Shown piece by piece: positions 60,026-64,000 of a DNA stretch of 64,000 bases (position 1 is the first letter of the stretch; every line of letters starts with the position of its first letter). The stretch covers positions 83,363 through 147,362 of the forward strand of contig NZ_KB912914.1 of NCBI RefSeq assembly GCF_000383875.1, in the 5' to 3' direction. Both the position numbers and the translations under genes were made by a program. This stretch comes from Caldibacillus debilis DSM 16016 (GTDB lineage Bacteria; Bacillota; Bacilli; Bacillales; Caldibacillaceae). The notes beneath the pieces were generated by a model. The model was not told where the DNA came from. It worked only from the letters and a program-made list of their open reading frames with translations, and did no database searches.

Positions 60026-60688
60026 TTATTCGTTGATTTTCGCCACATGCAAAATATTCGGCAGCTTTCGGATTTCATCCAAAATGGTTTCATCCACGTT
60101 CTGGTCCGTCTCGATCGTCATCAAGGCCGTCTTTCCCTTCTCCTTCCGGGACACCTGCATGTAACCGATATTGATCTCGTTTTTTGCCAGTACATGGGCC
60201 ACGTTGGCGATGGCCCCGAACCGATCGTTGTTGATCACGATGATGGAAGGGTGCTCCCCGGTCAGCCTGATTTTAAATCCGTTGATTTCGTCGATTTCGA
60301 TTTTTCCGCCGCCGATGGATACGCCGACGAGCTCCAGTTCTCCTTCTTCATCGCCGATATGGAGCCGGGCCGTATTCGGATGGTCGGGAACGCACGCTTC
60401 CTTGTGAAAATGGATCTCCAAGCCCTTTTCTGCGGCGATCTCCAAGGACCGCTTGATCCTTTCATCAAAGGTATCGAAATCGAGCAGCCCGCCGACGATG
60501 GCCACATCGGTCCCATGGCCCCGGTAAGTTTCGGCGAAGGACCCGTAAAAATAAATATGGGCCCATTTCGGTTCGCGGCCGAAGATGCTTCGCGCCGCCC
60601 GTCCGATCCTCGCCGCCCCCGCGGTATGGGAACTGGAGGGGCCGATCATGACCGGGCCGATAATGTCGAACACGCTCCGGTATTTCAT
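60026..60688 (-). CDS. sdaAB: L-serine dehydratase beta subunit
   Basis: SdaAB (220 residues) forms the heterodimeric L-serine dehydratase with SdaAA. The N-terminal domain has GPVMIGPSSSHTAGAARIGR, and the C-terminal ACT domain (about 145-220) begins near SIIVINNDRFGAIANVAHVL and may bind serine. ATG at 60688 follows GGGGGAG. A promoter lies 60 bases upstream. In B. subtilis yloV (fakA) precedes it, but not here. Confidence 0.96.
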   Translation of the reverse strand: MKYRSVFDIIGPVMIGPSSSHTAGAARIGRAARSIFGREPKWAHIYFYGSFAETYRGHGTDVAIVGGLLDFDTFDERIKRSLEIAAEKGLEIHFHKEACVPDHPNTARLHIGDEEGELELVGVSIGGGKIEIDEINGFKIRLTGEHPSIIVINNDRFGAIANVAHVLAKNEINIGYMQVSRKEKGKTALMTIETDQNVDETILDEIRKLPNILHVAKINE

Positions 60689-60749
60689 CCCGCACAACTC
60701 CCCCGATTTTTTTCAAATACGCGCGTTATCGTCTTCTGCCATTACTATT

Positions 60750-61337: not shown

Positions 61338-61942
61338 TTAACGGTTCAGTGCGGTATGGCGGCTTAATCCGTATTTCACCGGGTCCATTTTCCTTGGATT
61401 CGGGATATTTCTCAACAGCGGATCGATGAACCATTGGTTGGAAACGGGCAACATGGCCCATATACCCAAAGAATACACGATGGAACTGCCGAACATATAT
61501 CCAAGGAATCCGCCCAGCAAGGCGCCAAGGGGGCCGGCCATGCTTACCGCGCCGGCAATGGCCGAAAACACCCTGCCGACCATTTCGACGGGCAATAATT
61601 CCTGCAACGTTGACACAAAAACGATATTCGTTACCCCCAGCGGGATTTGGGCCGCACCGAAACAGAACAACGATAAAACGGGGAGCCGCTCAATGAGGAG
61701 ATCGCCCAAGCCGCCGACGAAAAAAGGAAACCGACAATGACTGACCGCCTGAGGGGATATTTTTTCATATGCGCCGCCATTAGAGTGCCTGCCATATTCC
61801 CCAAAGTCATGAAAGCCAAATAAGAGGAATAGAAAGACTCGCCTCCCCTGTGGACGGCGTATTCGGGCAACGCCCTCGATACGGAACCCAATACGAAATG
61901 GCTAAAGACCGATGCGAACAAAAACCGGGGATCGCCAAAGCC
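61338..61942 (-). pseudogene. Decayed MFS transporter
   Basis: Reading on the minus strand from about 61942, a hydrophobic frame reads DPRFLFASVFSHFVLGSVSR and AFMTLGNMAGTLMAAHMKKY, resembling the second half of a major facilitator (MFS_3-type) permease. Near 61690-61730 (around a run of six T) the sense moves to another frame, which continues LSLFCFGAAQIPLGVTNIVF and MAGPLGALLGGFLGYMFGSS to a stop at 61338. The N-terminal half is missing: a stop codon lies directly before 61942. Truncation plus frameshift make it non-functional. The original substrate is unknown. Confidence 0.8.
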
Positions 61943-62448
61943 TTATTGGATGAGAAAAAAATAAAAATTTTCCGTTCCATCCATTCCGTCCGAAAACAAT
62001 AAAAACGATCGCCCAAGAATTGAACGAAGAACCGTCCAGATTATACTACCATATCAAAAAGCTGGAAATCATCGGCCTGATTGAAGCGGTAAAGGAAGAG
62101 CAAGCGGGGAATATGAAGCAAAAATATTACTTGGCGAAGCAAATCGACGGCAGCCAATTCACGTAAATGGCTGAAGATATTTCCGAAGAGTCCGATTATG
62201 TAATTGGAAAACTCTATCAATTCGCCAATAAAGCCATATCCGCCCTGGACCGGGAACTGATCGAAGGAAGGGAAGATCATCGCGGGGAAGCCAGCGTCAT
62301 CAATGTGGAACTAGCAAAATCCGATTGGAAAAAATTAAACCGGAAAATCACGGAGCTGATCAATGAGGCCGCCCGCAAGGCCGAAACCGGCCACGACGGC
62401 GAAAAAGTAAACCTTACCTATTTGATCATGAGTTATTTTGAACGATGA
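61913..62448 (+). pseudogene. Decayed winged-helix (ArsR/HTH_20-like) regulator
   Basis: The only plus-strand coding remnant. KPGIAKALLDEKKIKIFRSI is followed by a frameshift in an A run at about 61993-61996 (one A too few). The sense then continues TIAQELNEEPSRLYYHIKKL, a winged-helix DNA-reading segment, then EIIGLIEAVKEE. An in-frame TAA at 62164-62166 interrupts it, and the same frame goes on with MAEDISEESDYVIGKLYQFA to a stop at 62448. No proper start codon remains. It lies head to head with the MFS remnant, the usual layout of a regulator and its transporter. The downstream part (62167-62448) could in theory be translated alone but lacks the DNA-binding domain. Confidence 0.8.
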
Positions 62449-62794: not shown

Positions 62795-64000
62795 TCATTC
62801 CATCATGAATTTGCGGATGCGGATCAAGCGGTAAATCGTTTGCAGATGGGTAAGCACGGCCAGGATGGCCAGTGCCGGCCCGATGAGATTGAAAAGGCCG
62901 CCGAGGAACACGAGGAAAAGCCTGCCGTCCCGGTTCATCGGGATGTAGTGGAAAAAGCCGTCATATTCCTCGGAAATATATTGTTTTCCCGTCAGGGCAT
63001 GGAATTTTTCTTTCACCAGCATCGACATCGGCAGACCGGTGAGGGCCAAAGCGGAGATGGCCAAGGCATAGGGGCTGGAGGCTTCCGCAAACCAGGCGAC
63101 GGCCATGCCCGCGATGATCAAGAAATCGGCATACCGGTCCAAGATGGAGTCGAAAAGCCCGCCGTAATTGCTCTTTTGAAATTTCAGCCGGGCGATTTCC
63201 CCGTCGACCCCGTCGACGATGGAAGAGATTTGCGCCAACAAACCGCCGGCGATCGGGCTTCCGAACGCAAAGGAAAGGGAAGAGCCGAGAGAAATGAGAA
63301 AGGAAAGGGCGGTAACCTGATTCGGGGTGATTCGGGTATAGGCCAGTTTTTTCGTCAGACGCAGGGAAAATTTCCGGTTGATGGTCCGGGAAATGAAGCC
63401 GTCCTTTGCGGGAATGAGCCCCGAAAGCAGCATCTTTTCCGCTTCCTTGAAACTCGGCGGATCATCCACGTCGATCCAGCGGCCGGAAACGAAGAACAGC
63501 TTCACTTTCCTTTCCCCGCAAAGGATGTTCACTCCGTCCGAGAGGGTGTGCTTCCCTGCGTTGATGGCTTCGGACAGGGCCCCCAACAGGGATTCGGAAC
63601 CGACAAAGAGGCCGCAGTCGACCGCCTGAAATTCCTTTAATTGTTTTCCGAGCTCCAGGGCCCGGCCGCCTTCGGCGCGCACTTTCGTGCATTCTTCCAA
63701 ATCGAAGACGTCATTCAGGCGGTTGTCCGCGGCGAGCAGGATTTCCCCTTCCTCCAATCGGTCCGCTTCCCGGATGAATTCCTTCACCAATTCCTCTTGG
63801 AAAAGGTGATCGGCCATCAACAAGAGAAACCGTTCCCCGGGGCGGCACAATTGGCGGAAGGCATGGACGGACACCCCGTTACCCTGCTCCCAATCGGCGT
63901 TATAAACGTAAGTGACCGAAACGCCCAACTGCGATCCGTCGCCCAAATATTCCTTGATTTCCTTGTCATATTTTCCGGTGATGATGACAAATTCCCGGAT
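62795..64000 (-). CDS. Bifunctional nucleotidyltransferase / CDP-alcohol phosphatidyltransferase, partial (5' end outside window)
   Basis: 401 residues are visible, open to the window edge. The first part (about visible residues 1-200) is the C-terminal bulk of a sugar-phosphate-type nucleotidyltransferase: EYLGDGSQLGVSVTYVYN, FLLLMADHLF, HTLSDGVNIL and GRWIDVDDPPSFKEAEKML. The second part (about 205-401) is a membrane CDP-alcohol phosphatidyltransferase with several hydrophobic segments and the complete motif D-G-V-D-G-E-I-A-R...G-x3-D-x3-D (DGVDGEIARLK, then GGLFDSILDRYAD). This order matches the inositol-1-phosphate cytidylyltransferase/di-myo-inositol-phosphate-phosphate synthase fusion of hyperthermophiles. 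Substrate identity is inferred; other polar head groups are possible. The gene stands where B. subtilis has yloV-yloU. Confidence 0.8.
   Translation of the reverse strand: MREFVIITGKYDKEIKEYLGDGSQLGVSVTYVYNADWEQGNGVSVHAFRQLCRPGERFLLLMADHLFQEELVKEFIREADRLEEGEILLAADNRLNDVFDLEECTKVRAEGGRALELGKQLKEFQAVDCGLFVGSESLLGALSEAINAGKHTLSDGVNILCGERKVKLFFVSGRWIDVDDPPSFKEAEKMLLSGLIPAKDGFISRTINRKFSLRLTKKLAYTRITPNQVTALSFLISLGSSLSFAFGSPIAGGLLAQISSIVDGVDGEIARLKFQKSNYGGLFDSILDRYADFLIIAGMAVAWFAEASSPYALAISALALTGLPMSMLVKEKFHALTGKQYISEEYDGFFHYIPMNRDGRLFLVFLGGLFNLIGPALAILAVLTHLQTIYRLIRIRKFMME

Follow-up and report, generated by a model that had tools for sequence, protein, structure and literature searches.

A predicted HrcA/CIRCE heat-shock operator at a putative di-myo-inositol-phosphate operon of Bacillota

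HrcA is known best as a repressor of chaperone genes. In the HrcA/CIRCE regulon of Bacillota, the CIRCE operator is located just downstream of the sigma-A promoter, as is seen at groES, hrcA and htpG of the genome analysed here. Di-myo-inositol-phosphate (DIP) is regarded as a heat-protecting solute. For a long time the genes for its synthesis were believed to occur only where growth temperatures exceed 55 °C (PMC8397731, PMC3877268). The bifunctional enzyme IPCT-DIPPS is represented by the Archaeoglobus fulgidus structure 4mnd and by the NCBIfam model NF041135 of the Thermococcales. The IPCT-DIPPS of marine Thaumarchaeota is likewise bifunctional (PMC8397731), but its hosts are mesophilic and its gene lacks CIRCE. 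In the thaumarchaeal loci L062, L067 and L090 an inositol-monophosphatase homologue adjoins the IPCT-DIPPS gene, and a protein of this type is listed as the DIPP phosphatase of these archaea (PMC8397731). In Pyrococcus furiosus, the gene PF1616, encoding the inositol-1-phosphate synthase (MIPS), is upregulated 16-fold (log2 4.0) upon heat shock, together with the genes that the heat-shock repressor Phr controls (PMC10746257). In the literature searched, no paper was found that connects HrcA or CIRCE to the synthesis of DIP, inositol solutes or compatible solutes.

The window analysed here is a stretch of 64,000 nucleotides from Caldibacillus debilis DSM 16016 and is part of a 152 kb contig (C36) of the 3.06-Mb genome. 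The gene at its edge continues into the adjoining contig sequence (locus L003), which also contains the rest of the operon:

62795–64000, minus strand: IPCT-DIPPS gene, part inside the window (reading frame open at the window edge)
L003:1157–2494 (would be 62795–64132), minus strand: IPCT-DIPPS gene, whole (reading frame in the full contig)
L003:2494–3585 (would be 64132–65223), minus strand: MIPS gene, 363 aa (Pfam and reading frame)
L003:3736–3762 (would be 65374–65400), minus strand: predicted CIRCE operator, TTAGCACTT-N9-AAGTGCTAA
L003:3777–3805 (would be 65415–65443), minus strand: promoter, TTGACA-17-TATAAT

From the truncated reading frame, the preliminary description had read a fusion of a cytidylyltransferase-like domain with a CDP-alcohol phosphatidyltransferase bearing an intact motif. 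The first 132 bases of the gene fall outside the window. In the contig the gene is complete from ATG to stop and encodes a protein of 445 aa with the N terminus MRAVILAAGEGKRMR...KPL, which contains the CTP-binding loop expected for the missing part. Both domains were detected by Pfam in the whole protein (NTP-transferase domains and CDP-OH_P_transf, PF01066), and the transferase motif D307xxD310G..AR...G324xxxD328xxxD332 is intact. The top match of a phmmer search against the PDB was 4mnd (E 1.6e-51, residues 2–373 of the truncated form). The best-scoring NCBIfam model was NF041135, which aligned over positions 1–417 of 419 with 309.8 bits; the curated cut-off of this lineage-specific model, 580 bits, was not reached, placing the protein outside the Thermococcales subgroup. 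An AlphaFold2 model was built on 27 sequences (mean pLDDT 92.5). In the Foldseek search with this model, 4mnd took the first rank (E 2.7e-28, TM 0.79/0.85), AF2299 and isolated IPCT structures ranked below it, and the IPCT structure 2xme was among the fold matches. Domain order, fold, catalytic residues and a nearly full-length alignment are shared with the Archaeoglobus and Thermococcales enzymes, whereas the identity to 4mnd is about 33% in the structural alignment. In the trees, the enzyme and MIPS fall within a Bacillota clade of Bacilli and Clostridia that has strong support, and in the enzyme tree the archaeal 4mnd sequence lies outside this clade on a long branch. The enzyme groups with IPCT-DIPPS enzymes, and the grouping with phosphonate or other head-group enzymes that would have counted against the DIP reading did not appear; Thermotoga and Rubrobacter enzymes were absent from the tree.

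The IPCT residues A7, A8, G9, G11 and R13 of the CTP loop (AAGxGxR), K22, D108 and D223, as well as the DIPPS-domain residues D307, D310, G311, A314, R315, G324, D328 and D332, are invariant in the 27 homologues. The same is true of the RDxR motif at the acceptor site, and R435 is nearly invariant. In PIP synthase the acceptor, inositol phosphate, is held at its phosphate by arginines of the corresponding region (PMC4634129). RDxR and R435 may correspond to these arginines, and this inferred correspondence suggests a phosphorylated acceptor. As sequence, fold and tree are in agreement, the gene very likely encodes IPCT-DIPPS. The assignment to the DIP pathway, put forward earlier as a possibility, is hence upgraded, while the enzyme activity and the product remain inferred.

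The MIPS gene sought upstream is present and directly adjacent, sharing one base with the IPCT-DIPPS gene (TAATG). It also directly precedes the DIPPS gene in the Bacillota relatives. The surroundings of the operon are as follows:

60026–60697, minus strand: sdaAB, left flank of the insertion
61338–62448: remainder of the inserted stretch on the sdaAB side of the DIP operon, with MFS transporter fragments (minus strand) and a small reading frame or possible helix-turn-helix tail (plus strand)
L003:3923–5599, beyond the window: yloV, right flank of the insertion and usual neighbour of sdaAB

The flanks were named yloU–yloV (upstream) and sdaAB–sdaAA–recG–fapR–plsX–fabD (downstream) from the sequence and from the gene order of Bacillus subtilis. 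A genuine synteny break exists at this site: in four genomes of the same family yloV adjoins sdaAB, whereas here about 4.9 kb separate the two and hold the DIP operon and apparently decayed MFS and regulator remnants. The MFS transporter fragments lie in shifted frames and the regulator-like reading frame is truncated. These remnants are probably pseudogenes and are not considered to belong to the pathway. A fragment resembling a transposase C terminus (L003:6518–7054) lies upstream of yloU, where the contig ends.

Among the genomes sampled, the enzyme is carried by 1 of 397 in the order (the window genome only, 0 of the 396 others), by 6 of 398 in the class and by 25 of 398 in the phylum of the Desulfotomaculum genome. 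Two other DIP-bearing Bacilli (G056 and G071) have an uninterrupted yloV–sdaAB pair, and their DIP operons therefore sit elsewhere. The rarity of carriers in the order, the empty site in genomes of the same family and the intact site in these two carriers make the proposed acquisition by transfer plausible. The trees and the GC content of the operon (53.1%, against 53.9% for the window) do not support a recent jump from a hyperthermophile, and a recent transfer from archaea was rejected on the same grounds; an old acquisition or one within Bacillota fits. The source organism is probably thermophilic. The growth temperature estimated from the amino-acid content of ten proteins, about 43 °C, is too rough to be used, and since related DIP genes occur in marine mesophiles (PMC8397731), the pathway is no proof of thermophily.

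The promoter in front of MIPS matches the TTGACA/TATAAT consensus at 12 of 12 positions. Fourteen bases past its -10 hexamer lies the sequence TTAGCACTT-TTATAAGTT-AAGTGCTAA, which agrees with the CIRCE palindrome TTAGCACTC-N9-GAGTGCTAA at 16 of 18 positions. The deviation is symmetric, with one change per arm, and the arms are perfectly complementary. The genome was scanned with the pattern TTAGCACT-N11-AGTGCTAA, which gave four exact sites and one further site with 2 mismatches; the reversed pattern, used as a control, gave none. The four exact sites belong to groESL, hrcA, htpG and the DIP operon, and all of them are located 10–14 bases after a -10-like hexamer. The hrcA gene is present in the genome. 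The CIRCE of htpG is perfect (L007:1501–1527), and htpG appears to be in the HrcA regulon. By our own arithmetic, which counts 16 fixed bases and assumes an even base composition, such an operator is expected by chance about 0.0007 times per genome. We infer that the DIP operon belongs to the HrcA/CIRCE regulon, without data on HrcA binding, repression or heat induction. Operator and placement are those of the known regulon of Bacillota, but the usual targets are chaperone genes, whereas this operon is predicted to serve small-molecule biosynthesis. The predicted heat-shock operator, which lies beyond the sequence available to the preliminary description, is the new part of this work and, although no binding data exist, a stronger finding than the identity of the enzyme.

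The operator is conserved among the relatives. A CIRCE-like site, defined as having no more than 4 mismatches of 18, is found 50–422 nt before MIPS in 21 of 24 non-redundant loci of the window's clade; for one of the three loci without a site (L024) just 302 nt of upstream sequence were available. When each locus was shuffled 100 times, the lowest count was mostly 5–6 mismatches, a few loci reaching 4, and the shuffles averaged about 7.5. A site is likewise carried by G024 and G043, Bacilli from a clade further away, and in L036 (1 mismatch) and G676 (0 mismatches) one precedes a three-gene operon PHP–MIPS–DIPPS. Altogether, CIRCE-like elements precede DIP genes in about 25 Bacillota loci, while several Bacillota members have none at their DIP genes. 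An early impression that CIRCE is missing from several clostridial operons did not fully hold, since in L036 and G676 the operator lies upstream of the leading PHP gene. No CIRCE-like site was seen in the non-Bacillota loci tested, where the best values, 7–9 mismatches, resembled those of the shuffles. The whole genomes of 17 relatives contain only 2–5 sites each at up to 3 mismatches, whereas the reversed pattern gave 2 in the 17 genomes together. Of the 17 top sites that were fetched, 16 belong to hrcA, groESL or htpG. Most of the relatives' operators have one degenerate half, TTAGCAGC. In G024 (L140:3040–8286) the DIP operon follows groES–groEL directly, each with a separate CIRCE; among the loci examined this linkage is limited to that single genome.

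Most clade members have a further element between CIRCE and MIPS, namely a hairpin ACUUCUG...CGGGAGU with a terminator ACUCCC...GGGAGU-U(n) behind it. Two alternative pairings are open to the GGGAGU strand, one within the hairpin and one with the 5′ arm of the terminator. Examples are:

L012:155–321: leader RNA
L019:2176–2287: leader RNA
L025:4692–4788: leader RNA
L028:4654–4783: leader RNA

Across 13 sequences the predicted leader pairs hold in 87% of cells, compared with 80% in shuffles (0 of 500 reach 87%) and 40–60% in slid controls. Eleven cells are changed on both sides (reached by 1 of 500 shuffles). The number of pairs with changes on both sides, 5, is not above that of the shuffles (243 of 500). 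No meaningful Rfam match was obtained for the relatives' leaders. It is likely that the relatives' leader, as predicted, acts as an attenuator. In the window genome's own 150-nt leader the conserved structure was not found, and the fold z-score is 0.49.

We propose that MIPS and IPCT-DIPPS make DIP and that the operon is repressed by HrcA through CIRCE and induced by heat together with the chaperones, and assign this reading a probability of about 0.83. The genes with their domains and catalytic residues are observed, as are the predicted fold, the arrangement of the operon, the sequences of promoter and operator, and conservation; the enzymatic reactions and their product are inferred, and so are binding by HrcA and induction by heat. 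MIPS would convert glucose-6-phosphate into inositol-1-phosphate, one molecule of which the IPCT domain would activate with CTP to give CDP-inositol. The membrane DIPPS domain would join CDP-inositol to a second inositol-1-phosphate, yielding phosphorylated DIP, from which a phosphatase would take off the last phosphate. In the window genome this enzyme is probably an inositol-monophosphatase-family protein encoded elsewhere, the sole homologue being:

C24:82682–83452: inositol-monophosphatase family gene, unlinked to the operon

Its presence is weak evidence, because such genes occur in all 14 control genomes. In many clostridial relatives the last phosphatase is probably a HisJ-family PHP protein beside the operon; a protein of this clostridial type is absent from the window genome. 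About 20 clostridial loci have the PHP gene in convergent orientation to DIPPS, tail to tail (downstream of DIPPS among L018–L034 and L115–L129), and in L036, G676 and four further genomes a PHP gene stands ahead of MIPS–DIPPS. Positions of individual PHP genes that accompany MIPS–DIPPS are:

L036:3990–4712: PHP gene
L166:2763–3476: PHP gene

The clostridial PHP phosphatase is predicted to remove the phosphate of phospho-DIP and is to be regarded as a candidate. At normal temperature HrcA, bound to CIRCE just downstream of the strong sigma-A promoter, would block transcription, and its inactivation by heat would allow chaperones and solute to be made together.

Three other explanations have to be considered, two of which concern the product. 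CDP-inositol could be directed to an inositol phospholipid if the membrane domain used a lipid alcohol instead of inositol-1-phosphate. This domain does match archaetidylinositol phosphate synthase and PIP synthase as well, and the formation of inositol lipids through CDP-inositol has been cited in hyperthermophiles and suggested for Bacteroidetes (PMC9246714). However, whether compared by sequence, fold or profile, the whole protein matches DIP enzymes best. AfDIPP synthase does not act on lipids (PMC4634129), and the acceptor-site arginines, as far as their correspondence can be inferred, suggest a phosphorylated acceptor. A solute is also the better fit to heat-shock control, and we regard the lipid product as unlikely. 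Even less probable is a related phosphodiester solute made from another phosphorylated acceptor, such as glycero-phospho-inositol, which is found beside DIP in some thermophiles. It cannot be dismissed altogether, as the acceptor pocket sets the product and is not readable with certainty from sequence, but known DIP makers show exactly this gene fusion and pairing with MIPS, and no gene specific to glycerol phosphate was seen beside the operon.

The remaining explanation leaves the enzyme as it is and questions its control: the operator may be a chance or relict palindrome or the site of another repressor, the operon then not being under HrcA. One base in each half does deviate from the consensus, and the sites of the relatives are asymmetric. 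These deviations have to be set against the low expectation by chance noted above, the position of the site exactly at the promoter and its conservation across Bacilli and Clostridia, which leave this explanation very little room. DIP synthesis under HrcA control is thus preferred.

Phr of Pyrococcus furiosus belongs to the archaea, and its operator differs from that of the bacterial HrcA/CIRCE pair predicted for the window operon, so that the link between chaperone and DIP control would have arisen independently. It seems probable, on balance, that Bacillota placed inositol thermolyte synthesis in the HrcA regulon independently of Phr, many of them with an attenuator leader and a PHP phosphatase, and that this heat-shock module was partly transferred together with its operator. 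The HrcA link would be a bacterial parallel to the archaeal control of DIP. The finding extends the inferred DIP synthesis across Bacillota, puts forward the PHP phosphatase as a candidate for the final pathway step and adds a leader RNA without an Rfam entry. If HrcA governs DIP synthesis, small-molecule and protein chaperones form one response in these bacteria, and the role of DIP as a genuine heat-shock protectant, a question of long standing, would become testable genetically in a Gram-positive bacterium instead of hyperthermophilic archaea.
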